Shown: piece after piece, positions 18,201 through 64,000 of the stretch
Numbering within the stretch: position 1 is the first letter of the stretch
How the letters are laid out: every line of letters starts with the position of its first letter
NCBI GenBank assembly: GCA_014871385.1
Contig: CM026423.1
Location: forward strand, 7,602,967-7,666,966
Length of the DNA stretch: 64,000 nucleotides
Direction: 5' to 3'
From: Ceratodon purpureus
Lineage: Eukaryota; Streptophyta; Bryopsida; Pseudoditrichales; Ditrichaceae
Program-made: the position numbers and the translations under genes
Notes under the pieces: model-generated
The model's input: the letters and a program-made list of their open reading frames with translations, nothing else
The model's database searches: none
Told to the model about the DNA's origin: nothing

Positions 18201-18304
18201 CTCGGGACTAGTATCTGAGACAGCACCTGGACATTCCGATATAGTTATCGTAGATTGCAACTGAGTAATACGGATTACTTACTGCAAGTAGGTACACCAG
18301 AGCA
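15280..18304. repeat. Duplicated ~3-kb segment, copy A
   Basis: This stretch aligns along its length with 35373-36262 plus 48922-51359. Matching landmarks include GCATGCCA(G/A)TAGCATTGAA, GATGAATAGCTAGCACGTG, CAACAAGTGGGTATCCAGCA, ACCTTCAAAGTGTAAACACT and TTTACTGCGATAGCA. The copies differ by many substitutions and small indels, so the duplication is old. Copy A lacks the two elements inserted in copy B and shows their empty sites at 15857-15865 (GGCAAAGAT) and near 15812. I see no intact gene in it. Its nature (old transposon or plain duplication) is unknown. Confidence 0.85.
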
Positions 18305-26894: not shown

Positions 26895-26906
26895 GATGAG
26901 TGGGAG
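26895..26906 (+). other. Polypurine tract before the 3' LTR
   Basis: The purine-rich run GATGAGTGGGAG lies directly before the 3' LTR, the position for priming plus-strand synthesis. A similar AAGTGGGAG lies at ~26850, just after the stop codon. Confidence 0.6.
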
Positions 26907-33446: not shown

Positions 33447-33448
33447 TG

Positions 33449-44265: not shown

Positions 44266-47200
44266 CTAAGGGGCAGCTAAGGAAACAACTGATTCGCACG
44301 ACGGTACAACGGGCTCCACGTCTTCCACCTGCTCGCATGAAGGGATCTCTGGCTCCACGCCTCCCGAAGCCTCGCACGAAGGGTTCTCAGGGTGCTTGCC
44401 TTCCACTTGCCCAGCATCCGGTGCGAGGTGCCACTCCCCCCCTGCATTGCGCTCCCCCGAGTTACTTCTCTCCATCCGGCTGAAAGCGCTGTCGCCCTCC
44501 AGACACGGCGAGACCAGCGGCATGTCGAACGTACACATCACCTGCGAGGGCAACGGTAAGTAATCCAAGTCATCCAAGTCCACTGAGATGTTCCAGTCGG
44601 CCAACTTCGCATGCATGTGGTACTGGCTGTTTGAGAGCATCTCCTTCGCTGCATCAAACAGTGCCTCCCCCGCAGCCGGCCATTGCCCCGTAGCCTCCAG
44701 AGACCCCCACCCGTACTCGAGGTCGATGTTCTCGCGAAGGAGCAAGACTGTCCTAAAAGCCCCCGCGACCTTCTCTTGATCCACTCCTGCCTTCGTTACC
44801 CACATGTCCCGCAATATATCCTCCTTCCCCTGATCCATCACGTCCATGCATGCACGAATGAAGGTGGCGCGCCTCCACTGCTGGTAGCTCTCCACCTGCC
44901 CACCCTTGTCGTCCCCGACATCCAGCACCTCTCGGAAGACTTCCCAACTTTCTCCATGAATATCCATCGTGGGGAAATAAATTTTACCCACTCGTATGAG
45001 TTCCTCCATAGCCAGCATGACCTGCCTCGATCTCTTCATGAGAGTGTCCTCCGTCAGCCCGAGCACCGGACACAGCATGGGCACGCGAGCCCCTGTCTCG
45101 CTCCGACTGAAGAGCTTCAATGCCCTCGCAAAATGGGGCGGCTCGTTCTTCTCCCCGGCCTGGCGGTTCTCCCGCTCCATCCATTTGATGAGACCCTGGA
45201 ACTCGTCCTCGGAGTGCTCACAGGGCCTGCAGAGGCAGGGTGGCAAAGGCAACAGGATCATATGACTGAAGAGAGGCGACCACCCCCACTCCCGAGCCTC
45301 CGCCGCAATACTCAGCTCCCGGTCGAATCTGGCCATCTCCTCAGCCACAAACGCAGCCCGGTTCTTCACCAACTGTTTCCTCGCCTCCACGGACTCCTCG
45401 TGCTCCTTCACCCGCGTTGCGTAGCTCAGTACGTCGTCGTGATACAAGTAGAAGTCTTGGATTTCCCTCTCGATGGCTGCCTCGCATTTGGACGTAAACG
45501 CCTCTTTGCACCTGTCCAGGAGCTTGAGGGACTGGATCGGCAGCGCATCCTGCAGTCATTAACCGGGGGGCAGCCACGATTAATCCTCGGCAATACACAA
45601 GGGCTGCTCGGAGAATGCATGGAAAGCACTCATAGGAATTCAGCAATGGCGACGGAAACTTACCGTCAGGTCTGGATTGAATTGCAGCGCCCCCCATGCG
45701 TGGGCTACCAGCCCAGGAAGTTGGCCCACCTCCTGCAGCTTCCGCAGCATCTCCACCGGGCCGTGAAGATCCTTCATGCAGTCCGCCGCGAGAATTGTCC
45801 CTACTTGCTTCTGCAAGCAGTACAAGCCCGGCGGATGCCCGGGCTTCCTGGGGGCTGGCTTCACCTGATTATCCGGGTAGAGCGTTCGCGCCCTCTCCCT
45901 TGCTTCCTCTTGTATCTGCAGTCGCCGACTCTGTCGTCCCCCCTTGGCTTGCACCTGCTCCTTCCCCTTCGGCTGCCCTGCCTCCTTCCCCTTCGAAGCC
46001 TCTGCCCCCTTCCCCTTCGCACCATCGTGGTCCTTCCCCTCCAAATGTTCTGTGTTTTTCCCCCACGCCTGCGCTCCCTCACTCCCTCCTGGCTTCCCAT
46101 CCCCCTTCGACCCCGATGCCGGCTCGCGCTCCGCTGCTGGACCTGCATTTCCCACATTCCGCCTACCTCCCTTCACCGACGGGACCCACTCCTCCGAGGT
46201 GGTCTTCTGCTCCGAACTTGGGGAACCCACACGCGGCCGCCTCTCGGTCTCCTTTGTTGGAGTCGTTCCCGCCTGCTGTGTCGCGGCCCGTGTCCTTCCC
46301 CCGACCCCCGGAACGTTCTGCCCTTGATTCTTCGGCGTCCCTGCAGGGCTTCTCCCCCCGACCCCCGTGCTTCCTCCGCGGTCACCCTTACTCCCTCTCT
46401 TCCCGGCCGCAGTGGATGGCCCTGCTCCAGCCTTCGGCCCACTGCAATCAGCACGGCGGCCCCCTCCCTCCTTACTCCCTTGCGCTCGACTGGGCCGCTG
46501 CCTCTTGGGCGACCCCGCTTTCATCCAGTCGTTGCGCTTCTCACGCAGCAGGTCCGCGACAGATGGCGGGTCTTCCTCCCTTGCCCGCTTCCCTTGCGTC
46601 GGCGTTTGCTGGGTCCCCCCCCTCCTATCTCCCCCCGTCTCCCTCTCTGGACTGGAGATCTCGACCACCTCCACACCTGCGCGTACACCCTGCCCCTCCT
46701 CCGAGCTGGTACCATCTTCCCCCGAATCGGTGCTTTCCCCATGTGTCTCCAACTCGTCTCCGTCCGTGTCTGGTGGCAGGCTTTTTTTTCCGAGCATCTG
46801 CCACGGTAGCTTGATGTTATACTTCCGAAACACCGCCCGGGACTCCTTATTTCCATTCACCCCCATCGCCGGATAAATCTTCAGAGGGCCCCAGTCATTG
46901 TACTCGTAACCCTCGCACAATCCCATTTGCCGATGCCATCCCAGGTTTGCTTTGTCCACCATGTCTAGGTCGCAGTACTTGCAGTAGAATGGGATCTTCG
47001 TCCTGGCCTTCCCGACTGCCTCCGGTGCCGGCTTTGTCCTTCGCCACAACAGGTTAACCTCCACCATCAGCCAGTCATATTCTGACATGGTGAAGGCGTC
47101 CCTATTCGGAGCGTATCCCACCCATGTGCTGCAGCACACTATGACCCGCTCCGGGCCGAATTTTCCTTCCACCTGGAGCTGCAAAACCAGAGCCCCGATG

Positions 47201-47511
47201 AGTGAGAACTCCAAGTAGAATAGAAGAAGGTATTCAAACAGAATGACAATAAAATTTGGAAATCATGTTTAGGACAACATGCAGATATGAGGGGAGAAGT
47301 TGTAGTCGCTTACCCCCGGGACAACTCCTGGATCCATCTTCGCGATCTTGGACTGCCATTCCTTCGACAACGTCTGGACGTCCAGCTCTGTCGCCCTCAG
47401 CCTCAGCACATCGCAGGCGTCCTGCCGGGAGAGTCCAGATAGGTCTGGAGTGTTGGGATCATGGATCTGGGCAGCGAAGGGCACCATCGTCAGGGCTCGG
47501 AGCAACGACAT
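44266..47511 (-). CDS. 998-aa zinc-finger protein of unknown function, second gene of the MULE
   Basis: Exons on the minus strand: 47511-47314 (66 codons), 47178-45664 (505 codons) and 45549-44266 (428 codons with stop). Clean GTAAGC/GTAAGT donors and TTGCAG/CTGCAG acceptors give phase 0 at both joins. Exon 1 begins MSLLRALTMVPFAAQ. A single zinc-finger-like motif, C-x2-C-x12-H-x5-C (CKYCDLDMVDKANLGWHR...C), lies at ~132-154 in an aromatic region (EYDWLMVEVNLLWRR). Residues ~210-480 are charged and disordered, with basic clusters (GSPKRQRPSR) and KGKE-type repeats. The last exon is helical and acidic, rich in W and E. It converges on the transposase as mudrB converges on mudrA in maize MuDR, but I see no similarity to mudrB that I can name. 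It could be an element accessory factor or a captured host gene. Confidence 0.75.
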
Positions 47512-48661
47512 TGCGAGGTCAATCAAAAATTCAACGGCAGAGGGGAAAGGTGGGGAGAGAAGAGCCAAGGTGAACCTAGGTGGGGATACGAAGCCAAGGT
47601 GAACAGGAACTCGACAAAGAAGAACATGAACAGCGTAAGGGAAGAGGCGGAGCCGAGACGCAATGGGACTGAAGAGGAGCTAGTGTCGGAGGTTTACCAT
47701 GCCCAATTGGATCCTCGAAGCTGCGACGGATCCCGAACACAAAGTCTCCGGAAGATGGAAAGAAGACGAGAGCAACCTTGAATACGACCCTAAACCCTAA
47801 TACAGTGGTAGGACAGACCGAGACGAGGACAGCAAATCGAGAAGAACATGAAGACACGAAGACATTAGGACAGCAAAACTAGGTGACTACAACACAACAT
47901 AAAACTTCAAAACAAAGGGCAAAGCTCAAACGGGAAGAGAGGTACGATGCTCAGTACTGACCAGCGCGTGTAGAGGTCCCATGGCAGTAGCCTCACTTGA
48001 TTTCACGCTTCCGGCACCTCCTGCCTACGTCGCGTGTCCACACGCACGAAGACGCCCTCCACTGCCGAAGCTTGGTGCCCACCTGCAGTCCGAGATGCAA
48101 TCGCCTTCCTCACCGTCACAATGGCACCGCTGTCCAAGGACACAGAACGCGTCCCCGCCTCCTGGCCAGCACCCTCCCGAAGTCTAAAACCTAGGAGGAA
48201 ACATGGGCCCCGGGATCGCCCACCTGGCCTCCAGAACTCCAGTCGGTCGACAGCCTCCGAGGATGTATAACAGCAACATGAATCTATGTTGAGCTGCTCC
48301 TGAGCAGGAACTTTGAGGCAGGTTTGCAGTGATATGTCAGCAAAGCCGACAAACTCTCTGTCTCTTTGGGGCGCAAATTGTTGTCCACGTTATTGATTTG
48401 ATTAGTCTTCAATCGCAGCCTCAAACTCGCACTTGACCAACCCTGGACGCTCCAAGACAGCCTGCCCCTCTATCCCGGAGAAGGAATGCTCATGGCCACC
48501 TAACCTAACCCTGACCACGATATCACAGAATGCACAAACATCCTAAACCCCTAACCTCCGCTAATGCACACCCTAAACGCCATAGCCATTGTGAGTAAAC
48601 CCTACCTTAGAATTCAAAACCTGCCTGTCCTAAACTCAGGGGCAAAACGTCGAATCATGTT

Positions 48662-48921
48662 GAATGCACAACGGGGGAGACGTCGCGGGGCGCGGGGGTG
48701 GAGGCTCGACGAGGGTGACGGGACCGGGATGAAGAATGGGCGACGGACAGACCGGGCGGGGAGCGGGAGCCCGGGCGCGGGGGCTCACCACGGGCGCGCG
48801 GGGCTTCGCCCAGGGTCGGGGACGGCCTGGTTCGGGGAGGGGGAGGGTCGGGGGGCGTTGCGCTGCCCCTGCCCGCGTGAGGGGCGGCTGCAACGCTCGA
48901 TGGGGCAAAATAGAGAGACCC
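48662..48921 (-). repeat. Right terminal inverted repeat of the MULE
   Basis: 260 bp, the mirror of the left repeat. It ends ...GAGAGACCC directly before GGCAAAGAT. The start of the right-hand gene lies ~1.15 kb inside it; the spacer 47574-48661 holds several C/A-rich short frames but no recognised gene. Confidence 0.93.
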
Positions 48922-51359
48922 GGCAAAGATGATGAATAGCTAGCACGTGTGTAACTGTTTGTACGCATGGGCAACAGTATCCAATATTCAAATCAACTAT
49001 GAAGAGCACAACTGTGCAAACGTGGTCAAGTTGGTCCTTTCTGTCAATTCACAAAGTTAACGATCATATTTTTCTGTATTTTTTTGGTCACAAAAAAGTT
49101 AGTTCAAATGTAACCTTGCAAACACTTTTTTGATACTTTGACAATTGGGCAAATTTGATTTCTCTTGCCACCAGCACTTGCTCTGGGATCTGTGCAACAA
49201 GTGGGTATCCAGCATGGAGTGATCAGCAGGTTGTCATGAGTTGCAAATTATTATATTAATATGACCATTGCAGTCTCGAAGATTTAGAGTTGATGTTCTG
49301 CATTTTCGCTAGATCTGAAGCGCACGCACTGAACAACCATGATGCAGCTGCAGTGTTGTGAACAAATTCGTCGGTGCGGGATACTCCAAGGAACTTCTGA
49401 TCAGGGTGTGCAAGATCTGTGTGAAATCATAAGGTTTGAGGAATCATGATGGAAACAACAACCGCATGCAAGGTCGATACTGTTGAACCGGTTAAGTCAC
49501 AGATTTCAATTACCTTCAGGCTATCTGTCGACTTCATTTGATGAAAGACCTTGAATCAAATACTGATCACTTATGTATGTGCTATGGTGATAATGTTCTC
49601 CTTCGAACTAATTGTAGTCTACATACCAAATGTTGGAACTCAGGATTAAACAGATGTTTATGTCCAGATGCGGGTTGTAGCCAAACCCAAGCCTGATAAC
49701 GTGTGACTGATTTCCTGTGCAATATTTTTTGATGAACACCTCACTCTGCATCTCTGGCTCAGATTTCATTCCAGATGCCGTTATCACAACTGAACGAGGG
49801 TGAATTCTTCTAGCACAAATCTGTTCTGAAAACCGCAACGATTAAATTCAAATTTCAGTGGTGAGTTAGGTTCTCACTTAGGTTCCAAAAACCTAGTTAA
49901 TAGGTCACACGTGCGTTGACCTTCAAAGTGTAAACACTGTCACTCACGTGATCTCCACTCCAGCTATCTTGACAGAACTTTCTCTATAAACTGCTCAACA
50001 GTTTGACACCGTCCCAATACGATCTGGTAAGTTGCAGCACTAACTAAAATGTTCAGTATCCAGACTGTCCACGAGTCCTGTTATACACAACCACTCCGCT
50101 AGAGCTTCACGTCTTGACTAAAGTAGTAAAGTATCATTTTATAATTTTTTGAAAATAATAATATAGTGGACTCCAAAGCCAATTGCATTACGGATTCAAG
50201 GATGACTTCCCTTTTTTGTCATTTGAAATTGCGTTGTTCATTTGAAAAAGGATATATGTAATTGACAAACTGGAGCCTCGTAGGGGCGGGAGTAAGCTTA
50301 CAACTGATCGGCAGATGCAGACCCCTGAGCAATTCCAACTCTAGGTAAATATTTCAAACGAAGAAAAACTATGGGAAGGTGTTGCTGTCGAGTATGTAGA
50401 TGGTAAATAGTTTTCGTTTTGAAGAATGGGGAGACGTTGCTGGGCAGGATCAATGGGCTCCTTCTTGGCCCCGCCCTGAATCGGTTTCTCTCTTGCAATG
50501 AAACTTGTGTTTGTTTATGCCAAAAAGAAGAAGTCCGCTTTCAACAGTGAAGTTGATAACTTGATCTGATGCACCATACCATATATAAAAGAAGAAGACC
50601 ACTTACAACAGTTCGTTGGCGTTATGCGCTATACCATATAAATCTTTTTAGTATTCCAATAATGACGTTCTAATTTTAAAACGTAAAGTTACATCTGCAA
50701 CCATCAACTGAATCTCTGATTGAATCCGATTAAGCTTTACGGGAGATTCAATACACTTCAGAAGCAGCAGTAGATTCTCTGCTTGCTCGCTCGTGAAGTT
50801 ACACATGGAGATTCTCTTGGATTCCCATGTGTTATTCGCATGTGAGATTGCCGCTTTTCCCACATGACTCTGAGATTATTCCCATGTGATATTCCCTGTT
50901 CACAATTGGGGCTTCTCCCACATTGCCTTCCCCCACTTGATTCCGGGAATAGGTCGATTAGAGAATTTGAAATGTTGAAATGGAAAAACAGAAAGCTGCT
51001 TTGTACATTTTACTCAGAAAAGTTCGACCCGGAAACCATATATGATCTCCCTGTATTACAGCTGTACGAGTACTGGACAGTGTTAGCAAGCTCATATTTT
51101 ATTGTGATGAATCATGAGTTAAGAAGGGTCATGAGATGCTTTCAACTGTTGTGAGTTGATCACTGCATGGTGGTGTAGATGGTATGTAACGACAAGGAGT
51201 TCCTTAAAACTTGGATTTACTGCGATAGCATCATAACAGGCCACCAAGCCGCACTCTCGGGACTTGAATCTGAGACACCACCTGGACATTCCGATACAGT
51301 TATCGTTGATTGTAACTGAGTAATACGGATTACTTACTGCAAGTAGGTATACCAAAGTG
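48922..51359. repeat. Duplicated segment, copy B, right part
   Basis: Homologous to 15857-18304. It starts with the second GGCAAAGAT and runs until about 51359, where similarity to copy A stops within CCAAAGTG/CCAGAGCA. No gene is recognised. The shared open frames (near 50298-50498 and 50648-50863) are broken differently in the two copies. Confidence 0.85.
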
Positions 51360-51420
51360 CATGGTTGTCATAATGGACGGACGGGCCAAAAAATTGTCGT
51401 GTAGTCACGTGACGAACATG

Positions 51421-51485
51421 ACGGACGGTTATCGGACGGACGCTTATCGGACGGACGCTTATCGGACGGACGCTTATCGGACGGG
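51421..51485. repeat. 15-bp tandem repeat (TTATCGGACGGACGC), four units
   Basis: Four near-exact copies at the left end of the island, following looser GGACGG repeats from 51374. The position, just inside the presumed terminus, suits subterminal transposase-binding repeats. Confidence 0.85.
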
Positions 51486-51853
51486 CTCCCGACCGCGAGC
51501 AAAATTACTGTCCTCACAGTTTACTACTGTTTACCATGGGTGGCGCCCGTCGTCGTGTCCGCGCGCGTCTTTGCGCCTGTTCGCGCCGGTCATTTGTGGC
51601 TGTTCGCGCCCGTCGTCAGTCTCGCGCGCGCGCGGTGATCGCGCCCGATTACCCTTGCCCGACCAGGGTCGCCCGCGCCCGTCGCGCGCTTGCTGTGATC
51701 GCGCCCGTCGTCAGTCTCGCGCGCGCGCGGTGATCGCGCCCGATTACCCTCGCCCAATCAGGGTCGCCCGCGCCCGTAACATGCTCGCGCCCGTAGCAGC
51801 CTGCGCGCGCCCAACCTGCTCGCGCCCACACTGTCGGCCCCGTGAGTATAAAT
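51480..51853 (+). promoter_or_regulatory. CpG-rich motif array A and TATA box before the 134-aa gene
   Basis: Dense CGCGCCCG/GCGCGCGC motifs, with a ~96-bp direct repeat (units at ~51607 and ~51703). The array ends in TATAAAT (51847-51853). The ATG follows 128 bp later at 51975. The leader after the TATA box shares TTGCCTTCAACAGCCC and GGGTAGCTGATTGC with array B. Confidence 0.7.
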
Positions 51854-51974
51854 TGCCACCCTCCTCCACTGATTTCGCACCCCCCCACTTTGTGCATTTT
51901 GCCTTCAACAGCCCAAGGGTAGCTGATTGCTTAGTGCTACGGTGGGTTTCTCAACATTCGGTGTACCGTCCAAC

Positions 51975-52379
51975 ATGAATTCCAACGCCTGCAATTGCCA
52001 ACAAATCAAGTCCATTATGAGTTTAACGAATGGTGCTACTCCACCGGGCACTGCACAGCGAACGGACACAGTTATTTGGTCAAAGCTGGAGCGACTCCGT
52101 CAACTGATTGAGTTCTTCGAGGATTGGATCTCTCGCCGTGACAAATTGGTGGCCTACGCAGAGAATGGACGCCCTCTGCCTCCAACCACTGAAGAGCAGT
52201 TGGCAACCCAAGCGACTGTCGAAGAACTTGACTGTGAGATTGGCGATCTCATCAAAGAACTGAAGAAGGAGATGGCAATACTTTGTGTCCCCACTATTGT
52301 CTCTAGTGCTCAAACGAACCATTTCGAGACGCACTTGAAAGACCTAGAGGACCGGTACCTAGAGTGCATGGCACTGTAA
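51975..52379 (+). CDS. 134-aa helical protein of unknown function
   Basis: Single frame from the ATG at 51975 to TAA at 52379. After a Cys/Asn-rich start (MNSNACNCQQ), most of the chain is predicted by eye to be helical and acidic (SKLERLRQLIEFFEDW, EELDCEIGDLIKELKKEM, HLKDLEDRYLECMAL), consistent with a coiled-coil or adaptor protein. AATAAATAAA signals lie 30-40 bp after the stop. It has its own TATA box and a leader matching that of the following gene. I recognise no family. Confidence 0.65.
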   Translation: MNSNACNCQQIKSIMSLTNGATPPGTAQRTDTVIWSKLERLRQLIEFFEDWISRRDKLVAYAENGRPLPPTTEEQLATQATVEELDCEIGDLIKELKKEMAILCVPTIVSSAQTNHFETHLKDLEDRYLECMAL

Positions 52380-52494
52380 TCGACATTACAATGAAGTGAT
52401 ACATTTCCAAAATAAATAAAGTATTCTTTTTTAACTCTGAATTTGCAAGTCCTCTTTGGTTACTCTGATTTTTAACAGTGTTCTAGGTTGTGGT

Positions 52495-52871
52495 GGCGCC
52501 CGTCCTGGCCCACTGCTCGCGCCCGTCCATTCAGCGTTGGCGCCCGACGGTCGCGCCCGTACAGTTCGGATCGCGCCCGAAAATATCCGCGCGCCCGCGT
52601 CGACGTCCGCGCGCGCGCCCCTTCGGTACCCGGACGACGCCCGCTCGCGCCCGACGAAGACCGGGTCGGTACCCGCTCGCGCGCGGTAAAACCCGCGCGC
52701 GCCCGTCATATACCCGCCACTGAACCGCTCGCGCCCGTTGATATCCGCGCGGGCGCGGACGGATACACGGCCGAAACCCCGCCGTCGGTGCCCGCGCGCG
52801 CCCGTCGGGTTTCCGCTCGCGCCCGTAGCAGGCTGTTCGCGCCCGTTCCCTGGCGCCCGTGACTATAAAAG
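52495..52871 (+). promoter_or_regulatory. CpG-rich motif array B and TATA box before the RING gene
   Basis: About 370 bp packed with TCGCGCCCG and GCGCGCCCG motifs, ending in TATAAAAG (52864-52871). The leader shares ACCTTGCCTTCAACAGCCC-type sequence with array A. A possible leader intron runs from CAG|GTGGGT (~52960) to TTCTCCAG (~53006). Confidence 0.7.
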
Positions 52872-53147
52872 GGCGATTTCCCACCTCATTTTGCACTCCC
52901 CCCCCCCTTTGAGCACCTTGCCTTCAACAGCCCCCGGGTAGCTGATTGCGTGGTACTCAGGTGGGTCCCAGCACTCTGACACGTGTCCTTGTTTTTATTC
53001 TCCAGAACTCTATGGTGTCTGTGTATTACATTTGAGAATTTTGTAAATGTTTATAATTTGTAAATGTGATTGAGGTTCTGGGGTAGTCGTAGGCTTTTAA
53101 TTTTGCACCTTCGGAAGACTTCGAAGAACGATCTACCTCGAGCAGAC

Positions 53148-55700
53148 ATGGAACGGCAACAACCAGCACTCACGGCGGCAGAGCAGAGGAAAAAGCAAAA
53201 GGATGCGGGACGGCCCAGGCATGGAAACCTCCAACATAAGAGGGTCCACGTCTTATTGAATCCAGCAAAGCTGGCATTCAGAGGGTGGGAAGCTGCATCG
53301 CAACCGTGGACTCTAGCAACGTGTGAACAATTCATTGAATGGTGCCACATTGGGAAGTTATTCCCGTTGCACCGTCATAATAACAATCGTACTTCAAACA
53401 AGGCGAACATGAAATATTGCAAGAACCGTCAGTTCGGGAGGCGGTGTTTGGAGGTGTGGCAGGTCCTATACAACCAGGCGATGAACGAGAGGAATGAGGT
53501 TCCGCTCTTTATTTGTAGAATGGTATATGCCGAGGTAGTGCTTCATAGGCAGGTGGATTGGAGGACCATACGGTTGACTCCTAGTGTCCAGCGGCGTCCA
53601 CATGAGATGGCGATACCTACAGGGGTCCTAAGATTTCCAGGTGTGGACTGGGCATACTTGGATGATCCTGAGGATCAAGCGCCTGTTGAATGGAGTGACT
53701 CAGGGGAGGATAATGATTCTGATGGTACGGTAGACCGTACCCCTCAGTCACAGACAAGAGCAGCGACTAGTGCTAGAATCACACGGTTAAAAAAGAAGGA
53801 TCCTGTGCTAGCTGCCTGTTTGTCGACGAGGAATCGTGCACCGCCTGCAAATCCTACTGGACCGGGTATTCCTCATCAGGCTCCTCCAGCAATCGTTGGG
53901 GGCCCGAGCAATGTTGATGTTGCTCCTCCTATATTAGTTCCACAGATTGCGGGCCCGAGCAATGTTGATGTAGCTCCTCATGTACTGAATCCACAGATTG
54001 CGGGCCCGAGCAATGTAATGGAAGATGATGACACTGGGTTTGCAGATGAGTTGGAGGCTACAATAGCCGCCGCTGATGCCCAGGGCCTGCAAGTCGATGC
54101 ATTGCAGAAGGAGCTGGAAGGAAAAAATGCAATAATTTCTGAGATGGAGAAGACTATCCAGAACTTGTACGAAGAAGCTGATAGGATGAATGAGATTATA
54201 CGGAAGCAGAATGAAGAGATTTCGCAACTTAGATCTGCGAAGACTCCGACTTACATACCCGAAGCAAGCCAAGCTCCAATCCCTCGTAGCCCTGGAATGA
54301 ACGAGGAAGACGTTAATGCCATCATTGAATCGGCCACGCACGGTCTCCTGGAAGATACCCCTGTCCGAGTTCCCCGTAAGCCAATCATTCCATTCGCGTC
54401 ATCAAGTCAAGTGATGCACCCCCCCCAGCGGCAAATCATGTTCGTAGATTCTCAAGAGACGGAGGACACTTTGGGATTTCAACAGCCATCAGTACCCACT
54501 GTCTCCGAATTGCAAGCTACCAACGGGATGCTCAGAAAGTATCTGATCGAGATGAGCAGACAGTACTACCAATGGAAGATTGCATGCATCATGAACGTCG
54601 ACCGTTTCAGACAGATGCGCGCTGAGTTCGAGAGGATTGACCGCGACTACCTCCAGCTTAACTCCAAGAGAGATTTCGGTCTTACCTCGTGGGCAGATCC
54701 AAATGAAATGTTCCCTGACAGCCTACCGATGATTGGTAAAGCAATAGATTGGACGCGGTTGGGGTGGGAGTACAAGACCGCCATATCCAATGAGAAGATC
54801 GCTAAAAATGCAAAGCCAAGCTTGCTCTGGCCCAATCCAGCGAAGTATGTGTTGGATGGAACCCACTGTGCAATTTGTACCAATCTATTTGGGCCAGAGG
54901 GGGGCTGGCAATTGGGATCCTGTCAATGCATGTATCATCCACAATGCTTGATCTCGTGGGCCTTGATACGTCGGAAGTGTGCAGTATGTAAGGCCCCCTT
55001 ACACAAGCGTTTTTATGAGCAATTCGGCCTAGTGAATTGGATGCCACCGCATTGGGAGCAAAATGAGGAAAATACTCCTGACTTTCCAGACAAGTGGGGT
55101 GAAGACTTGATTTGGAATTGGCTTATGGGAATGCACCTGTCCTATATTAAACAAATGAGCGATCAGTGGAGGTGGGACCAGAAACCTGCGGAGATTGTAC
55201 GGATCTGCCACGAACTCATCAAGGGCGGGACGGAGGAGGAACTCGAGGGAAGGAGGAATTTCTTCTACCAAGTGCTACATGGGTATTGGGATATTCAAAC
55301 TTGTACATTCCAGTACGGCCCCCATCCTCTTGGATTTAAGTGGAATTCCAAAGGGGAGTTGGTTGCGGATCAGATCAAGGAGTTGCACGACATGACTGCA
55401 GAGGATTTCCGGATCGCTGAGGATGTACAAACCGCGGAATCTGAATGGGATATGTTGTTCAAGAATCAAGCCGTGGATTTCCTATGTGCTGAAGTGGCTC
55501 CGGAGGTCGTAACAGTGCTCCGTCGGATGCGCAACAACAACTTCATGGAAGCAATGCTTGGAGGAGATGGCATAGCGAAGAGAACCCGTTCTGCCAAGCG
55601 GAAACTCATCGCCAACGATGGGGCAGAAAGTAGTGCAGCAGGTACCTCTCGTGCTCGACACGATGAGGGTGGATCGAGTTCCTCTGCACCGGGCACGTGA
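53148..55700 (+). CDS. 850-aa coiled-coil protein with a variant RING finger
   Basis: Frame from the ATG at 53148 (MERQQPALTA) to TGA at 55700, no introns. A conserved-looking N-terminal domain (~20-175; WTLATCEQFIEWCHIGKLFP, CLEVWQVLYNQAMNER) is followed by an acidic linker. Then come three copies of a ~17-residue repeat (GPSNVDVAP..L.PQIA, ~250-290). A coiled coil lies at ~306-365 and a second helical region at ~455-510. A RING-like finger at ~573-620 reads HCAIC, then SCQCMYHPQC, then CAVC. The fourth ligand is Cys, giving a C4HC3 order unlike standard C3HC4. The C-terminus ends in a basic and Ser-rich tail. RING proteins usually act as ubiquitin ligases; that role is inferred. A start upstream of 53148 would need a non-ATG codon. 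Confidence 0.8.
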   Translation: MERQQPALTAAEQRKKQKDAGRPRHGNLQHKRVHVLLNPAKLAFRGWEAASQPWTLATCEQFIEWCHIGKLFPLHRHNNNRTSNKANMKYCKNRQFGRRCLEVWQVLYNQAMNERNEVPLFICRMVYAEVVLHRQVDWRTIRLTPSVQRRPHEMAIPTGVLRFPGVDWAYLDDPEDQAPVEWSDSGEDNDSDGTVDRTPQSQTRAATSARITRLKKKDPVLAACLSTRNRAPPANPTGPGIPHQAPPAIVGGPSNVDVAPPILVPQIAGPSNVDVAPHVLNPQIAGPSNVMEDDDTGFADELEATIAAADAQGLQVDALQKELEGKNAIISEMEKTIQNLYEEADRMNEIIRKQNEEISQLRSAKTPTYIPEASQAPIPRSPGMNEEDVNAIIESATHGLLEDTPVRVPRKPIIPFASSSQVMHPPQRQIMFVDSQETEDTLGFQQPSVPTVSELQATNGMLRKYLIEMSRQYYQWKIACIMNVDRFRQMRAEFERIDRDYLQLNSKRDFGLTSWADPNEMFPDSLPMIGKAIDWTRLGWEYKTAISNEKIAKNAKPSLLWPNPAKYVLDGTHCAICTNLFGPEGGWQLGSCQCMYHPQCLISWALIRRKCAVCKAPLHKRFYEQFGLVNWMPPHWEQNEENTPDFPDKWGEDLIWNWLMGMHLSYIKQMSDQWRWDQKPAEIVRICHELIKGGTEEELEGRRNFFYQVLHGYWDIQTCTFQYGPHPLGFKWNSKGELVADQIKELHDMTAEDFRIAEDVQTAESEWDMLFKNQAVDFLCAEVAPEVVTVLRRMRNNNFMEAMLGGDGIAKRTRSAKRKLIANDGAESSAAGTSRARHDEGGSSSSAPGT

Positions 55701-56026
55701 CGTCGTGGAGATCCATGAGTGAAGACCACGTTTTGTAAAAAGATATCGGAATATAAATACATGTAGATGGCATAGGGGTATGGATAGGTTTGGGATTACA
55801 TTCACATGTTTAATGTTTGTTAAACTCAAACAATGGATGATAATTTGCTTTTGTAAATCATTGTCGTGATTCTCAAGACGCTTTTATGCTCCCTTCATAA
55901 TACATTGGCCTCTCTTTTTTGGATTGCCAATCATGTTATTCATTCCGCCCGTTGTCTCATCTCCTTCCATCGTATGATAAGTGTATAAATATCTCTGTTG
56001 CACACCAAAATGTTTAATATGGACAG

Positions 56027-56224
56027 TGGATTTAAGTCACGCTAAGGGTCCCTTCACACCTGGAGGTGTGTACCACCGGCTACCGACTGTCTAACTCCGG
56101 GCCCTCCAAAAAACCCGTTTCCGATTCACAGGGTTCGAGTTAATTTACAGGGGGTTGGGTCTCGTGATAGGCCAGAGTCGGGGATCGGGGGCTGGGGTTC
56201 TTGCTGGATTTAAGTCACGCTAAG
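56027..56224. repeat. 158-bp insertion flanked by 20-bp direct repeats
   Basis: TGGATTTAAGTCACGCTAAG occurs at 56027-56046 and 56205-56224. The enclosed 158 bp contains GGTTCGAGT, close to a pol III B box, but no clear A box or A-tail. A SINE-like insertion with a long target duplication is possible. Confidence 0.6.
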
Positions 56225-57029
56225 AGAACTTCAGTTATTGTAAGTGTATTTAACTTATGGACTGAATTTTATGTTACGTGGATTTGAACTCTGATCCCGC
56301 CCGCATGGTCGCGCGCGTTTGCGCGCGCCCGTAGTGTGCGTACTCGCGCGCGCGCGAACCTGCCCCAGCGAGAATAAAACCAGGATTACGCCCGCCCGTG
56401 CGCGCGCGCACGAACTGCTCGCGCGCGTGCGAAGTGCTCGCGCCCGTCGCGCCCACAGCGCGCGAACGGATACTGAAATGTGGAACACCCGACGGTGTCT
56501 CCGTCGTTTGGCTCGCGCCCGATTCCGCATGCGCCCGCCCGATTTCGCGCGCGCCCGACAGTGCACGCGCGCGCGCACTGCAACCTGGGTGGGGGACTAA
56601 TTTCTCTCCCCAAACTCTCTTTTCCATTTGCCCGCGCCCGTACGCGCGCGCGCGTCCTGATCGCGCCCGTCAAACCAACCGCGCGCGCGCGGTCGCGTGA
56701 TTCTGAATCTCTTCCTCCCCCACAATGTCCCCCGCATTTCGTTCGCGCCCAATTTCGCGCGCGCCCGATTGCGCGCGCCCGTCAATACTCGCGCGCGCGC
56801 ACTGCAACCATGTCATGGAAGTAATTTCTCCCCATTCAGTCCCTCGTTCCATTTGCACGCGCCCGGACGCGCTCGCGCCCATCAATGCGGGCGCCCGTTT
56901 TGCACGCGCCCAAGCACTCCAACAACATCACTCAAATAAATTTTATGATTCCCCCACTCTCCCATCGTATCCCCTTGTTTTTATTAAATAATCCCACACT
57001 CTCTAAATTTTTAATTGTTTTTTTTCCCC

Positions 57030-57930
57030 CTCTTTGAACAGTACGTTTTTATTTAACTTGTAATCTCATTTTGTCTGTTCATTTTTATAATATACTAAAG
57101 GTAGTAAATCTTCATGTCGACCCAGAGTCACATGAAGATCCTCTAAGCGCCTGAGTTCAGCTGATTTATATCCACTATTTTTTTTTTCCCACTGTTTTTT
57201 TTTTCCCCCTTCGTTGAACACTACGCTTTTATTTAATTCCTTCTTTCATTTCGTTTGTTCAATTTTATAATTCCACCTCTCCCCCTTCTTCCCGCCTTAT
57301 TTTTATTCAATACTTCTACGCTCTGTAATTTGTTTTATATTTTTTTTTCCCCTTCGTTGAACACTACGCTTTCATTTAATACCTTCTCTCATTTTGTTTG
57401 TTCATTTTTATAATTCCACCTCTAGTCTATCCTCCCGCCTTATATTTATTCAATACTCCTACGCTCTTTAATTCCTTTTTTTTTTTCCCCCTTCGTTGAA
57501 CACTACGCTTTTATTTAATTCCTTCTTTCATTTCGTTTGTTCAATTTTATAATTCCACCTCTCCCCCTTCTTCCCGCCTTATTTTTATTCAATACTTCTA
57601 CGCTTTGTAATTTGTTTTATATTTTTTTTTCCCCCTTCGTTGAACACTACGCTTTCATTTAATACCTTCTCTCATTTTGTTTGTTCATTTTTATAATTCC
57701 ACCTCTAGTCTATCCTCCCGCCTTATATTTATTCAATACTCCTACGCTCTTTAAATCCCTTTTTTTTTTTTTTCCCTCTTCGTTGAACACTATCATTCTA
57801 TTTAATTCCTTCTCTCATTTCGTTTGTTCATTTTTATAATTCCACATCTCCCCCATCCTCCCGCCTTATTTTTATTCAATACTCCTATGCTATTTAATTT
57901 GTTTTTTTATTTTTTTCTTCATTTTATAAA
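57030..57930. repeat. ~140-bp tandem array, at least five units, dimeric pattern
   Basis: CTTCGTTGAACACTA recurs at ~57209, 57352, 57489, 57637 and 57778, with a diverged unit near 57030. Two subtypes alternate (one with CTCCCCCTTCTTCCCGCC, one with CTCTAGTCTATCCTCCCG), so the higher-order period is ~285 bp. Poly-T runs separate the units. Confidence 0.8.
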
Positions 57931-58082
57931 TTTGAATGCCTATTCGTTTACTTTTTTTTTTTTTTTTTCCTTTTGGGTACTCCAATCTCCCATACTAATG
58001 TATGGTATTTCAGTGTAGTCCAGTCTCTCCCTTAAGCTTTATTTTTTTTCTTTTTTTGAACTTACGACTTTTAAACTTCATT

Positions 58083-58330
58083 GAGCGCGCCCTGTTGGAT
58101 CGCGCGCGTCCGAACGCGCCCGCAGGCGCCGGCGCGGTGGTGTCCGCAGTGGACCCACTGAACCTGCCCACGCGCGCGCGCGCACACTCGCGACCGCACC
58201 CGCAAGTACGCGCGCGCGCCTGCTTGTTCGACGCGCGCACGCGTCGTCCCCGACCTGCGCTCGCCCTGCTCGCGCCCACCCGTTCGCGCGCGCCTGCTCG
58301 CGCCCCACGCCGCCTGCGCGCGCGCTCGGG
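58083..58330. promoter_or_regulatory. Isolated CpG-rich array
   Basis: About 250 bp of CGCGCGCGCC/CGCGCCC motifs of the same type as the gene-linked arrays, but with no TATA box or gene start right after it. Confidence 0.5.
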
Positions 58331-58664
58331 GTTTCAACTGGATTAGTGCAGTAACTAGTAAAATTTATCCCATATTTTAAGTTAACACTCCCTGAGGTTA
58401 GCTTAAAACGACTTACCTTCCACTAGGAGGGCAGAAACATGAGGGGCGAAATGACAACCTCCTCTAGTTCTTAGACATGTGTGAATGGAGTGGTTTGTCC
58501 TTTCGCACTGTCATGTTTCTCATTTTTTTTACTAAAATAGGGTTCCTTTTAATGTAGATGTGCACGTGTATGTAGTTCACACACTTTAATTTATTTAAAT
58601 TTTATTCATTTTTCCCTCTCGTTGTTACTTCTTCTCATAGAATTGAGGTGGTCAAATCGATCCC

Positions 58665-59007
58665 GGCCGTTTGATCGCGCCCGCACCCGACCGCCCGTGC
58701 GCGCCCGCGCCTGCATTCGCCCGCCGCTCTCCGCCCGTGCGCGCCCGCGCCCGCATTCGCCCGCTGCTCTCCGCCCGCGCCCAATCCGCGCCCGCCCGCT
58801 TCGCGATCCAGCGCTCGCGCGTGCATGCGCCCGCCCCCGCCCGTCTTCCACCGCGCGCGCTATCCGCCACGCGGCCTTCAATCGCGCGCACCCACCTGCG
58901 CCCGCCCGTTCGCCTCGGATCGCGCCCGATCTTCTGGTGCGCGCGCGCCCGTTCGGTCGCGCCCGTCCGGACAGTACTCGCCCGGTCGAGGGCGGCAGTA
59001 TATAAAC
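58665..59007 (+). promoter_or_regulatory. CpG-rich motif array C and TATA box before the hAT gene
   Basis: Dense CGCGCCCG motifs including a ~49-bp unit repeated twice (58690-58790), ending in TATATAAAC (58999-59007). The leader contains GGGCTCCTTGCTTG and TTGGGTGGGGGGAA, matched in array D. The ATG is 251 bp from the TATA box. Confidence 0.7.
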
Positions 59008-59249
59008 TGCCCCCTTGATTTGACATCCACCTTACCTCCTTGCGTGCTTCATGTCCTGGGTCTCCTTGAGGGCTCCTTGCTTGAAACTGTTAGCTTGGGG
59101 AGACACTTGGTTTGGGTGGGGGGAATGTAAAAATTCTTCTCTCCATAAATCAATGTGTCAAGCACTTTTCAGACACACTAAGTTATTCAGATAATAATCT
59201 TTTGGTACTACTGGTCCTATTAGTCCCGATACTTCCCTAATCATTCACT

Positions 59250-62200
59250 ATGGATCCGGATGAAGCGGTTGAACCGGTTGAAGTGGTTGCTCCGGCTAGA
59301 GCCATTCCAAGACTCGGTACGAGAGAGTGGGCACCATGGTTTTCGATCAAGTTCCAGGAAGGGTCACTGTCACATAAGGTAGCCCAATGTGTGTATTGCA
59401 GGACCAAGTTTTCGTACGTGAGGTCCAGGTGCTTTCAGCATTATGGTTGGGACCAGTCCAATCTCTCGAGGGTTTGCCAAAAGGCACCTACCGTAGTGAA
59501 GAGGAAGTTTCAGTTTTGCGCTGGAAAGATTCCCGGCCCTTTGACACAGGAGGAGGTGGATGGTATCAGGCCAACGTTCCCCGCGTCAGTTCAACGTGGA
59601 ACATCCAGTGCTTCCACACACGGCACTCTGTACGGTGGATCCGAACCCTCGTATAATGATTCCGAAGAGGACCGAAATGTCTCCAGTGTTGCACCTAGTA
59701 GGGCCGGTTCGAATACCACTAGGAGCTTGCGGCAACAGGACATGAGTGAAGTACTCCAGATCGCCAAGCGGAAGGAGCTGGACATGTTGTGGTCATCCTT
59801 CTTTTACGAAGCCAACGTCGCATTCAACGTGGCCAAGCACCCAGCATTTATTAAGGCGGTGAGCACAACCGCGGCTGCCGGATTTAACTACAGTCCTCCT
59901 TCCTATGACGCGATGCGAACAACGCACATCAAGGAAAAAAAGAAGTTAATCAAGGCAAAGATTGATGAACGTACGAAAACCTCGACCGAGTTATACGGGG
60001 GTACCATATGCTCCGATGGCTGGGATAATGTGAATCGCCGACCGTTGATGAATGTCATGCTAGTATGTCCGGCAGGCGATGTATTTCTTGGGTCTGTTGA
60101 TACGACTGGCGAGAAGAAGTCAATGGGATATATTGCCGGGGAGATGAAGAAATATATTCGAGAAATTGGCCCTCAGAATGTTGTCCAGATTTGCACGGAC
60201 AATGCAGCCAACATGCTTGGCGCCATGGATAATATCCTGGAGGAGTTTCCTCACATGTACAAGCAGGGCTGTTGTGCCCATATTCTAGATCTTCTTATGG
60301 AGGACTGGGGCAAGGAAGTCTTTGTGAAGGATTTGGTCGCCAAGGCTAAACACGTGTGTCATTACATTCGGAGACATCATGTTCCCATGGCCCTTTTCCG
60401 CAAATTTGAACCGAAGTTGTCCTTGGTGGTTCCCGCTGAAACCAGATTCGCTTGTAACTATCTGATGATAGAGCGCCTTATGGAGGTTAAATTTGCTTTG
60501 GAGCAAGTGGTCATGGCACAGGAGTGGTACGAGTATGTCGACGGTTTATTCAACCAAACCGAGGGGGTGCGTAATCATGCACGCGCAAGCGTAGTGCGTC
60601 AAACAATTCGTGACGATGGGTTCTGGCATCAGTGTGACAACTTCACGCACCTAGTGAAACCAGCCCTAGTAGCTCTCAGGACCTTCGATGGAAGCCAGCC
60701 GGCAATGGGCAAGGCATGGATTACAATGAGCAACCTAAAGGATCACGTGTACAATCTCCGAGGATCCCCTTGCTTTTTCCCACCTGTCATGGCAACAAGG
60801 ATGGAGCTGCGGTTCGACCGTAGATGGGACATGATGCATACCGATCTTCATTATGCCGTGGCGCTCTTGAACCCTTGGGTTAGAACGCATAAGGGCTTAC
60901 AAGTCATAGGAGAAGCGAAGGCGGCTCTCAATCGGGTGTTTCGTCAGGTGGGTGGCCAAATTGGAATTCCATTTGGCGATCTTATGAAAGAGATGATCGA
61001 GTTCGACGAGGGACGTGGCCCTTACAGCCCCGAAGTGACCATCGATATCAGAGGTTTGAATCTGGAACCCCATCAATGGTGGCAGAGGATTGGAGGGGGA
61101 CCATTGGCAGTCATTGCGAAGCGCATTTTATCTCAGGTCTGCTCCGCCTCATCGTGTGAACGGAATTGGAGCATGTACTCGTTTGTCCACAACAAGGTAC
61201 GCAACCGCCTGGGGTTAGAGAAGTCTGAGGCCTTGGTGTACATTTATACGAATAGCAGACTCCTCCGCGAACGCCCAAAGCCCAACCCCCTCAGATGGTA
61301 CGAGAACAATGCATGGTCAGAGGAGTCGGATCCGGAGAGAGATCCAAGCGAAGAGGAAGGAGATGACGACGATCATTACATACCAGTTGACCATGCAGGC
61401 AGTGGGGATGATGATGTCTGGGGACATGATAACGTCGACGTTAACACGAATGGGCAAAACGACGGTAATGGCAACGGACGCGGTGACCCTAACCGCAACA
61501 ATCCGCGTGACCGCAACAACCACGACAATAACGGTGATGAGTACGACTTCAACAATGAACCAGAATATAACCAGGGAAACCCGGACATGAACATCTATGG
61601 AGACGAATTACCCACGCTCCCGGTATTTGATGAAGCGGCTAATGCAGAAGGAAGAGGCGCTCGTGACGAAAGAGATGCTATTCCAGTCCAAATCAATCCT
61701 GAGAACAATGACGGGGTTGCAGATGATTCATCCAGCGAGGACCATCTAGGCAACGATATCCATGCTGGCGATGATGATGAGGACAGTGACGAAGGGGGTG
61801 ATGGAAGTCATGGACGGGCTGTAGATGGACCTCATTGGACCGGCCTCGTTAGTGGGGAGGGCAACTGGGGAACCGTTCCGGCACAAGGCGACTCAAGCTT
61901 GTTTCAAGAGATTCCTCCTGCTCACGAGAGAAGGACTGTGCACGCAATCCCCGCACAGACTGTGGCTCCATCGCAACCCACTGGTACGGGGGGTATCGAA
62001 CCAGATACAATCGTGGATGGAAGCCTGGCTCGGAGGCCCACAAGTTCAATGGGCGCAAAAATAGCTCAACTCCTTAGATCATCAGCAGCGGCGAGGCCTC
62101 CACTCAATCGAGCTAGTGGTAGTCGGCGTGGTGCCTCCACCGCCAAGCTAGTCCCCGTGGCGCCAGCTATAGACGAAGCCGTACAGAATGTGGCCCAACG

Positions 62201-62696
62201 TGGTGCGAAGAAGTCCACAGCCAAGGTTGTTAGGAAACCACCATCACAAGAACCCCGCGGAGGAACACGAAAGTCAAGCAAAAAAACTGGACCTGATCCC
62301 CTTCCATTCTATACAGGGTACACTGAAGGGGGGCCTTCTTCTGGAACTGGGGTTGTTCGCACACGCATAAACTTTGAGGATGGCATCACAGCCATCGGTA
62401 ATTCCGGAAAGGAGAGGCCTATGAAGCGCCTAGTAAGTGCCAGAGATGGCAATACGGGTGAAGTTTCCGTGCAAGTGCGCAATCTTACATCGGAGGTGGA
62501 AGGAGAGGTACAAGCTCCAGTGGTCGGAGCTCCTGAGGATGAAGGTGACAACGAGCACTCAGAGGAGGAAGACCCCGATTGCGATGAGGCGCCAGATGAC
62601 GAAGATGTGATAATCCGGCACGAATTGGGGCCCACTGTAGCTCGGAAAAGACAATCTTCACGCAAGAAGAAGCCCCGCAAAGCAAGGAGAGTCTAG
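59250..62696 (+). CDS. hAT-like transposase, 1148 aa, with long acidic C-terminal tail
   Basis: Single frame from the ATG at 59250 to TAG at 62696. A BED-type zinc finger lies at ~28-80 (WAPWFS, CVYC, CFQHYGW, C76). The DUF659/RNase H-like core includes ICSDGWDN (D ~256) and QICTDNAANM (D ~317), followed by a Cys/His stretch (KQGCCAHILDLLMEDWGKE) usual in plant hATs. The C-terminal hAT dimerisation region (~600-680) contains SCERNWSMYSFVHNKVRNRL. Plant hAT transposases are commonly 600-800 aa; here a further ~450 residues follow. That tail is acidic and Asn/Asp/Gly-rich (DDDDHY, NDGNGNGRGDPNRN), then serine-rich, ending in a basic cluster (RKKKPRKARRV). No introns or frameshifts are seen, so it may be functional. 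Confidence 0.92.
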   Translation: MDPDEAVEPVEVVAPARAIPRLGTREWAPWFSIKFQEGSLSHKVAQCVYCRTKFSYVRSRCFQHYGWDQSNLSRVCQKAPTVVKRKFQFCAGKIPGPLTQEEVDGIRPTFPASVQRGTSSASTHGTLYGGSEPSYNDSEEDRNVSSVAPSRAGSNTTRSLRQQDMSEVLQIAKRKELDMLWSSFFYEANVAFNVAKHPAFIKAVSTTAAAGFNYSPPSYDAMRTTHIKEKKKLIKAKIDERTKTSTELYGGTICSDGWDNVNRRPLMNVMLVCPAGDVFLGSVDTTGEKKSMGYIAGEMKKYIREIGPQNVVQICTDNAANMLGAMDNILEEFPHMYKQGCCAHILDLLMEDWGKEVFVKDLVAKAKHVCHYIRRHHVPMALFRKFEPKLSLVVPAETRFACNYLMIERLMEVKFALEQVVMAQEWYEYVDGLFNQTEGVRNHARASVVRQTIRDDGFWHQCDNFTHLVKPALVALRTFDGSQPAMGKAWITMSNLKDHVYNLRGSPCFFPPVMATRMELRFDRRWDMMHTDLHYAVALLNPWVRTHKGLQVIGEAKAALNRVFRQVGGQIGIPFGDLMKEMIEFDEGRGPYSPEVTIDIRGLNLEPHQWWQRIGGGPLAVIAKRILSQVCSASSCERNWSMYSFVHNKVRNRLGLEKSEALVYIYTNSRLLRERPKPNPLRWYENNAWSEESDPERDPSEEEGDDDDHYIPVDHAGSGDDDVWGHDNVDVNTNGQNDGNGNGRGDPNRNNPRDRNNHDNNGDEYDFNNEPEYNQGNPDMNIYGDELPTLPVFDEAANAEGRGARDERDAIPVQINPENNDGVADDSSSEDHLGNDIHAGDDDEDSDEGGDGSHGRAVDGPHWTGLVSGEGNWGTVPAQGDSSLFQEIPPAHERRTVHAIPAQTVAPSQPTGTGGIEPDTIVDGSLARRPTSSMGAKIAQLLRSSAAARPPLNRASGSRRGASTAKLVPVAPAIDEAVQNVAQRGAKKSTAKVVRKPPSQEPRGGTRKSSKKTGPDPLPFYTGYTEGGPSSGTGVVRTRINFEDGITAIGNSGKERPMKRLVSARDGNTGEVSVQVRNLTSEVEGEVQAPVVGAPEDEGDNEHSEEEDPDCDEAPDDEDVIIRHELGPTVARKRQSSRKKKPRKARRV

Positions 62697-63029
62697 ACTG
62701 TGGTCACCTTTTTAGCGCATGAAGTAGCAGTAAATCTAAACATAGAATCTACCGGCTAAAAACCAAAAAAAATACTACGTTATTCTTAATGTTTTTTTTT
62801 TTTTTTTGGTAGCACCTTCTTATTACGTAGGCTTATACTGTTACTTAGAGTCAACCTAGTTCATTATCTCACACTCGAAGGAATTGTATGGTTGTGCTCT
62901 GTATTAATTTTTGTGCGCTAAATGCGGTTAATATATCTCCATTGAGTAATTTCCCAGTGAATTTTTTTGGTATTCTGTTCAATATACGAGTATACCGTAA
63001 CCGAACCTGTACAGTGTATGTAACGCTGC

Positions 63030-63413
63030 CTATCCGGGCGCGTGCACTGGGACGGGCGCGTACAGGAAGGCGCCCGCAGGGGCACGGTGTCGAGCGCGTG
63101 CGCGGGGACGGGCGCGTGCACGGTCACGGGCGCGTACAGCGTGCTCGCGCGTACAGATAACCGGCGCGCGCAGGGGTACGGGCGCGAGCACGCGGGCACG
63201 GGCGCCTGCGGCGTCGGGCGCGCCCGATGTGGGCTGACGGGCGCGCACGTGGGCACGGGCGCGCAAACGCGGGCACGGGCGCGGGCAGTCCCCCGCGCGA
63301 ACGCGGTGGACGGGCGCGTGCAGACGGGCGCATGCGGACGGGCGCGTGTGGAGGCCCTGTGCGCGCGCGTGTACGCGCTTACGGGCGCGAACAGCCGAGG
63401 GGAGCATAAAAGG
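63030..63413 (+). promoter_or_regulatory. CpG-rich motif array D, motifs inverted, and TATA box
   Basis: About 370 bp of ACGGGCGCG(T/C) motifs, the reverse complement of the motif in arrays A-C, although the gene still reads to the right. It ends in CATAAAAGG (63405-63413). The leader carries GTGGCTCCTTG and TTGGGTGGGGGGGA, as in array C. Confidence 0.7.
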
Positions 63414-63588
63414 CGCCCCTTAACCCTTATTTTCTACTTTTCAAAGTCTCCTCTTCCAGGTGGCTCCTTGTCCTAGCCCGTGACTCCACGTGCTCTGCTT
63501 GGAACTGCAGGAAGTGGGAGCAACCAGATTGGGTGGGGGGGATCTTTTGGTTTTTTTTTTATTGTGTGTCCAGTTCATTATTCCAACT

Positions 63589-64000
63589 ATGTCGGTCTCT
63601 CGCGGATCCGGGAAACGCCCTGCCTACGTAGATCTTGATGCTCCTGTAGAGGATGTGATGGCAACCTCCACAGCACCGACCGTTACAGGCTCAAACCCGT
63701 CATCAAGCTCATCGGGAAAGAAGAACCGGAAGTCGGCGAGTGAGAGGGACCCGGACTACCCACCTCCTCGGTACCAGGAATTCGTTAGAGAGCTAGCATT
63801 GGAGTGGTACGGATGTCGGAAACGGGAGATGATTACCCGTACGTACGTTGAGAAGGGGGAGACCGGAATTAAGGACTTAAAGACCCATTTGGAAGAGTAT
63901 TTGTGGAAGAAGCTGGACCTTTCCGAGAGATATAATGATTGTATTCATTACTTTCATTTCCCTAAGTGGATGGAGCAACAAATAACAACAAACACTACGA
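63589..64000 (+). CDS. N-terminal part of an unknown island gene, cut by window end
   Basis: Open from the ATG at 63589 to the window end, 137 codons without a stop. The N-terminus is disordered and Ser/Lys-rich (SSSSSGKKNRKSASERD). A folded-looking acidic/aromatic domain follows from ~58 (PPPRYQEFVRELALEWYGCR, EEYLWKKLDLSERYND, HYFHFPKWMEQQ). No family is recognised. Its promoter matches that of the transposase gene, so the two may be expressed together. Confidence 0.7.
   Translation, partial: MSVSRGSGKRPAYVDLDAPVEDVMATSTAPTVTGSNPSSSSSGKKNRKSASERDPDYPPPRYQEFVRELALEWYGCRKREMITRTYVEKGETGIKDLKTHLEEYLWKKLDLSERYNDCIHYFHFPKWMEQQITTNTT

Follow-up and report, generated by a model that had tools for sequence, protein, structure and literature searches.

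A 14.4-kb hAT element with four genes in Ceratodon purpureus

Classical members of the hAT superfamily of DNA transposons (Ac, Tam3, and Hermes) carry a transposase gene alone. In a stretch of 64,000 nucleotides from Ceratodon purpureus contig CM026423.1 (C3:7602967-7666966), referred to here as the window, a gene for a hAT-like transposase lies instead on an island of CpG-rich arrays and several plus-strand genes, and an earlier note made from the letters of the window had proposed that the whole island may be one giant mobile element. The locus raises the questions of whether the transposase and its neighbors move together and, if they do, what the neighbors contribute. The island proves to be one unit: its ends are defined, it has 8-bp target duplications, and in the copies open to assessment the same four genes occupy fixed positions. 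Its ends, its target duplications, and its transposase argue for cut-and-paste movement, and we consider it very probable that it is one cut-and-paste hAT transposon with four genes, a confidence that applies to anatomy and mobility and not to the role of the cargo. The element is probably autonomous.

Ends, target duplications, and mobility

The element occupies 14,437 bp, from window position 51,360 to position 65,796 (C3:7654326-7668762). The window ends at 64,000, and the right end was located in DNA fetched from downstream. The window holds two copies of a duplicated host segment, copy A and copy B, whose last shared block is 88.6% identical and which diverge at 18,299 and 51,354, respectively; this bears out the earlier claim that duplicated host sequence stops, and an island begins, at 51,360. 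The island opens with CATGG. Homology to the right flank of copy A (18,301 onward) restarts at 65,801 at 89% identity, and the right junction reads CCATG followed by CCAAAGCG. It had been set beforehand that DNA to the right of the window should rejoin copy A with a second target copy and the complement of the left terminus, and the junction at 65,796/65,801 has both, the second target copy matching at 7 of 8 bases. The features at the boundaries are as follows.

18297..18304, no strand: empty-site equivalent in copy A, CCAGAGCA
51352..51359, no strand: left target-site duplication, CCAAAGTG; beyond the window, the element is followed by the right copy, CCAAAGCG
51360..51378, plus strand: left terminal inverted repeat, CATGGTTGTCATAATGGAC, 19 bp, with its complement at the right end
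51360..64000 within the window and on to 65,796, plus strand: body of the element

The sole difference between CCAAAGTG and CCAAAGCG, which agree at 7 of 8 bases, is CG to TG; the copy A equivalent agrees with the left target copy at 5 of 8 bases and with the right at 6 of 8. At a second site, on C4, the element is flanked by CTGTCATT at left and right alike. Across 12 elements read at both ends (the one in the window, the one on C4, and ten picked from exact-end pairs 14.0 to 15.6 kb apart), the duplication was a perfect 8 bp in 10 and matched at 7 of 8 bases in the other 2. An 8-bp target and the CATGG start, both proposed earlier from the window, are found across these elements, the latter as part of a 19-bp end. 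In the genome searched (362.5 Mb, 151 contigs), that exact end had 252 matches (133 forward and 119 reverse), and its reversed control had none, which excludes chance ends; with up to 2 mismatches allowed, there were 802 matches and 2 for the control. Among 30 neighboring forward-reverse pairs less than 60 kb apart, drawn from 100 listed of the 252 ends, 20 were spaced at 14.0 to 16.4 kb and 10 at 26.5 to 48.6 kb, one of the latter having been shown to contain another inserted element, and no exact-end pair was shorter than 14.0 kb.

A one-gene hAT among unrelated neighbors in duplicated host DNA would be in keeping with the usual single-gene makeup of hAT elements. This alternative is refuted by the outer ends, the target duplications, and the empty site in copy A, which together enclose all four genes as the proposal of one giant element had supposed, and we give it next to no credence.

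Four genes behind CpG-rich arrays

The earlier note had described four plus-strand genes, namely, a hAT-like transposase, a RING protein, a small helical protein, and an unknown. All four open reading frames (ORFs) are real (134, 850, 1,148, and 522 amino acids [aa], with start codons of our choosing).

51975..52379, plus strand: gene 1, ORF for a small protein of 134 aa
53148..55700, plus strand: gene 2, RING protein (850 aa; RING-type zinc finger, residues 573-618)
59250..62696, plus strand: gene 3, hAT transposase of 1,148 aa, with DUF659 and a hAT dimerization domain
63589..65157 (in the window to 64000), plus strand: gene 4, protein kinase of 522 aa, cut by the window end

In Pfam, the transposase matches DUF659 at E 2.6e-34 and the dimerization domain PF05699 at 24.5 bits, above the cut-off of 21.4; the match to Hermes is weak (E 0.08). 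We take D256, D317, and E637, placed by known motifs, to be the catalytic triad. The transposase has a C-x2-C at residue 47 and no Pfam match to a BED zinc finger. The fourth gene is present as described, and the label "unknown" can be replaced, as its product matches the protein kinase family PF00069 at 31.8 bits, just above the cut-off of 31.7. What are presumably the Gly-loop, VAIK lysine, C-helix Glu, HxD..N, and DxG motifs lie at residues 220, 242, 260, 358, and 383, together with what we take to be an APE motif, and from this sequence the kinase is probably active. The RING assignment fared less evenly: the domain of gene 2 matches RNF24 (E 9e-5), whereas its match to PF13639 (19.2 bits, E 0.0015) falls below the cut-off of 27.3. 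Residues ~300 to 365 of the same protein weakly resemble coiled-coil proteins. For the small protein of gene 1, searches of Pfam, NCBIfam, and PDB sequences gave nothing noteworthy.

Some large transposons are known to carry viruses (PMC10175614; this and the other papers given by PMC number are drawn on in part), and the element might be a virus-transposon fusion like Teratorn, with viral genes as its cargo. Among the four proteins, however, no polymerase, capsid, or packaging Pfam match reached the cut-off, and peptide patterns from the transposase, kinase, and RING protein brought up no relative in IMG/VR that could be confirmed, in a scan that reaches close relatives only. We dismissed a viral origin of the cargo on these two grounds and regard it as very improbable.

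Each of the four genes has a TATA-like box 128 to 284 bp upstream of its ATG, behind a CpG-rich array. These and the other repeats of the element that lie in the window are listed here.

51378..51490, plus strand: subterminal GGACGG repeats beside the left end, possible transposase sites
51480..51900, plus strand: CpG array and TATA-like box (51,847), ahead of gene 1
52480..52870, plus strand: CpG array and TATA-like box (52,864), ahead of gene 2
56290..56940, plus strand: mid-element CpG array
57195..57920, no strand: T-rich tandem repeat with a unit of ~143 bp
58080..59010, plus strand: two CpG arrays and a TATA-like box (58,999), ahead of gene 3
63030..63410, minus strand: TATA-like box (63,405) and a CpG array whose motif is mainly on the minus strand, ahead of gene 4

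The 68 bp downstream of the TATA-like box of gene 2 are 84% like the corresponding stretch of gene 1. CpG arrays had been noticed from the letters alone, and the ratio of observed to expected CpG is indeed 1.22 to 1.54 in the five array-bearing kilobases of the island; it is 1.44 in the T-rich kilobase, 0.72 to 0.92 in the remaining island kilobases, and 0.20 to 1.08 in those that precede 51,000. The array word GCTCGCGCCC was counted 19 times within the element, and the remaining 51,359 bases of the window have none; for GGACGGAC, the count is 4 within the element and 0 outside it within the stretch examined. Separately, a direct repeat, GGATTTAAGTCACGCTAAG, at window positions 56020-56230 brackets ~160 bp and is perhaps a small insertion or tandem duplication within the element.

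Copies in the genome and a second hAT family

The earlier note had suggested searching the genome for further copies, and copies were found that share the gene set, are of comparable length, and have target duplications. Scoring covered the top-ranking places, 40 for the transposase, 83 for the kinase, and 53 for the RING gene, and 89 of 150 small-gene matches were compared with the end pairs. The scored copies are 93 to 100% identical and most of their frames are open, with in-frame stops in 3/40 transposase, 12/84 kinase, 7/62 RING, and 11/150 small-gene rows. Gene positions were assessed on C1 to C5, chosen because the listing of exact ends is complete there. The kinase lies 592 to 624 bp from the right end in 27 of 28 matches, the one departure being C3:7502290 (99% identical), and the small gene lies 470 to 724 bp from the left end in 26 of 34 matches, the 8 others all being less than 99% identical. 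On these contigs, the four genes were not seen apart in other contexts.

The ratios of nonsynonymous to synonymous change (dN/dS-like) were compared with a spectrum-matched control in which the same kinds of change were re-dealt over the gene in 2,000 shuffles. They came to 0.40 for the transposase, 0.63 for the kinase, 0.67 for the small gene, and 0.69 for the RING gene. Synonymous changes numbered 13 against 7.3 expected in the transposase (26/2000 shuffles as high) and 42 against 30.9 in the kinase (25/2000). The sole clear deficit of stops was in the RING gene (0 against 4.4 expected; 20/2000), the kinase having 3 against 4.4 and the small gene 3 against 4.9. The copies compared are related and few (8, 10, 13, and 6, the transposase having 8). 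The 8 transposase copies are the best protein matches, which biases that ratio low, and most kinase, RING, and small-gene copies come from further down the match lists, which biases theirs high. There is moderate evidence in these sequences that all four genes are under mild purifying selection.

Other hAT families with DUF659 are present, as judged from the 150 best of 903 candidate matches. In a second family, read over 16 kb (C8:4668500-4684499), the transposase is 33% identical to that of the element and has a weak BED zinc finger match (E 0.026, below cut-off). Convergent with it, in the opposite orientation, lies a gene for a 1,001-aa RING homolog that scores above its Pfam cut-off and shares two homologous blocks with gene 2 (E 2e-21 and 4e-12). 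This RING gene has 46 scored copies, 33 of which have a transposase facing them at near-constant spacing; the start-to-start distances of 2,821 to 3,244 (minus-strand RING) and 5,353 to 5,424 (plus-strand RING) are the same gap on two strands. From this spacing we infer that the RING gene lies inside the second family's element. The occurrence of a RING homolog in this second family too, at a constant distance from the transposase, makes it probable that the pairing of the two genes is old. The left end of this family is CAGGGTTGTCACGGTCG, against CATGGTTGTCATAATGG in the element, and its 17-mer had 164 matches and its control none; its right end probably differs from its left. The array motif GGCCGTCGCC occurs 17 times in the second family and 0 times in the element, whereas GCTCGCGCCC, with its 19 occurrences in the element, is found 0 times in the second family.

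These observations bear on the possibility that the cargo consists of passengers, host genes captured once and with no role in the life of the element. Gene capture by transposons is known, the selection signals of the RING and small-protein genes are modest, and some copies carry stops. On the other hand, the genes are held at fixed positions in copies as similar as those scored here, no shortened exact-end pair appeared among the 30 examined, and a RING homolog, differently arranged, occurs in a divergent hAT family. We consider it improbable that the cargo is there as passengers only.

Several features of individual copies and of the flanking DNA were observed as well. In nine scored copies of the RING gene (e.g., C5:12620861 and C13:6496361), the frame is 893 aa long and the match pieces overlap, which suggests a shared internal length change. 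The kinase gene of the C4 copy is interrupted by an 18.7-kb element (joined-stretch positions 15781-34506) flanked by a 9-bp duplication, TACAGCGGG. Over 6.7 kb, the right part of this insert shares 95% identity with DNA to the left of a third hAT family; an ORF in that part weakly matches a DNA methylase (E 2.5e-5, just below cut-off). Within the window, positions 36263-48921 are taken up by a Mutator-like element of 12.7 kb. Its inverted ends are identical over 261 bp, it is flanked by a 9-bp duplication (GGCAAAGAT), and copy A preserves its empty site intact; of its several ORFs, one weakly matches a SWIM finger, below cut-off.

The copies are unevenly distributed over the genome. Among 150 scored small-gene copies, 12 of the 66 that are at least 99% identical are on C6, as against 65 of the 84 that are less than 99% identical (Fisher p 3e-13). 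C6 has 110,524,308 bases, 30% of the genome, which with its 85 matches to chlorophyll a/b-binding genes is that of a green plant or alga. The sex chromosomes of C. purpureus are reported at 110.5 and 112.2 Mb (PMC9273592), each exceeding 100 Mb and together making up ~30% of a 360-Mb genome (PMC8000587), and we infer that C6 is a sex chromosome. The skew suits old copies persisting on a chromosome with low recombination.

Possible roles of the cargo

The transposase would bind the CATGG ends and the subterminal GGACGG repeats and would cut and rejoin DNA as other hAT transposases do. For the other three genes, we hypothesize that the RING protein, the kinase, and the small protein form an accessory module that counteracts silencing by the host and so maintains expression of the element, a proposal with somewhat less than an even chance of being correct. 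As part of the same proposal, the family-specific CpG arrays may be landing sites for one cargo protein, in the manner of VANC and the repeat arrays of VANDAL elements. More tentatively still, this may be a hAT lineage with a transposon-encoded signaling module, in which a RING ligase common to at least two divergent families, joined in one of them by a kinase and a small protein, acts through family-specific arrays before the genes to un-silence only its own kin, with hundreds of insertions as the outcome.

A number of results weigh against the account given here of the element and its cargo, or fail to favor it. The decay of CpG, used as a proxy for non-methylation of the arrays, gave small counts for arrays versus coding sites: 4/463 versus 9/417 (window-C4), 2/300 versus 4/283 (window-C8), and 4/300 versus 1/276 (C4-C8). 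The RING ligands of gene 2 read C-x-C-x2-H, versus C-x-H-x2-H in the second family, so that the fourth ligand is Cys rather than His and E3 activity is not assured. The excess of synonymous changes is weak in the small gene (34 against 25.9 expected; 65/2000 shuffles as high) and in the RING gene (33 against 25.5; 91/2000). Among the matches listed, all four genes were found in at least 12 of the 30 end pairs, and one pair (C6:25607363) had no match to any of them. In the second family, 13 of the 46 RING copies had no transposase neighbor among the matches listed, no close forward-reverse pairs of the 17-mer were found among 100 places listed save loose ones of more than 20 kb, and neither a right end nor a kinase homolog was found in the 16 kb read. 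The third family, whose transposase is 41% identical to the element's, had no RING, kinase, or small-gene homolog in the 17 kb read.

It is also conceivable, if rather unlikely, that the cargo proteins are direct cofactors of transposition, taking part in end binding, transposase phosphorylation or turnover, or the choice of target or repair, and have no anti-silencing role. Other plant DNA transposons have helper second proteins, such as TnpA of En/Spm and MURB of MuDR, and a kinase and a RING protein would fit the regulation of a transposase. The arrays, however, stand before every gene and not just near the ends, which fits a role in chromatin or at promoters.

Comparison with known systems places the element within the hAT superfamily. 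Like Ac, Tam3, and Hermes, it has DUF659 and a hAT dimerization domain, short CA..TG inverted ends, and 8-bp duplications, and unlike them it is 14.4 kb long, with four genes and arrays ahead of them. VANDAL elements are Mutator-like, unlike this hAT. Lanisha, attributed to Maumus, McDaniel, and Carey in 2020, is reportedly from Ceratodon, so that the two probably share a host; the hAT domains and 8-bp duplications rule out membership in that group. Fungal Starships are moved by a tyrosine recombinase, to which the four proteins had no Pfam match at E up to 1, and the same was true of a TET/JBP dioxygenase. The likeness to VANDAL lies in a factor encoded by the element together with tandem-repeat motifs that differ from one related element to the next: VANC induces methylation loss, and its targets, often arranged as tandem repeats, are variable among related elements (PMC5735166); array binding in the element described here is putative. 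Lanisha has an EnSpm-like transposase and short (2- to 5-bp) target duplications (PMC12730594), and Starships resemble the element as large cargo-carrying eukaryotic elements (PMC11623301).

The nearest precedent is among rust fungi, in the TET+ hAT7 elements, hATs with an extra TET/JBP gene that is thought to let them escape silencing (Kojima 2025, PMC12730594). They differ from the element in their 7-bp duplications, their fungal rather than plant hosts, and their dioxygenase, and the portion of that paper drawn on here names no RING or kinase for hAT7. IS3EU of rust fungi, also a DNA transposon, has a kinase gene next to its transposase, as here; its kinase is an alpha-kinase, and it belongs to another superfamily with 6-bp duplications (PMC12730594). 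By title and abstract start, the open-access literature yielded no description of a plant hAT that has several genes, a kinase and a RING gene among them; the Ceratodon genome paper or Repbase may mention the family. The suggestion that this would be a new kind of element is slightly overstated, since hAT7 elements with a TET/JBP gene are already in print.

To our knowledge, large multi-gene DNA transposons come chiefly from fungi and from a few animals. A plant hAT with a probably active kinase and a RING protein, hundreds of termini, and many near-identical copies offers a test system for the use of host ubiquitin and kinase signaling by transposons. It bears as well on how a very large, probably non-recombining chromosome is filled by such elements.

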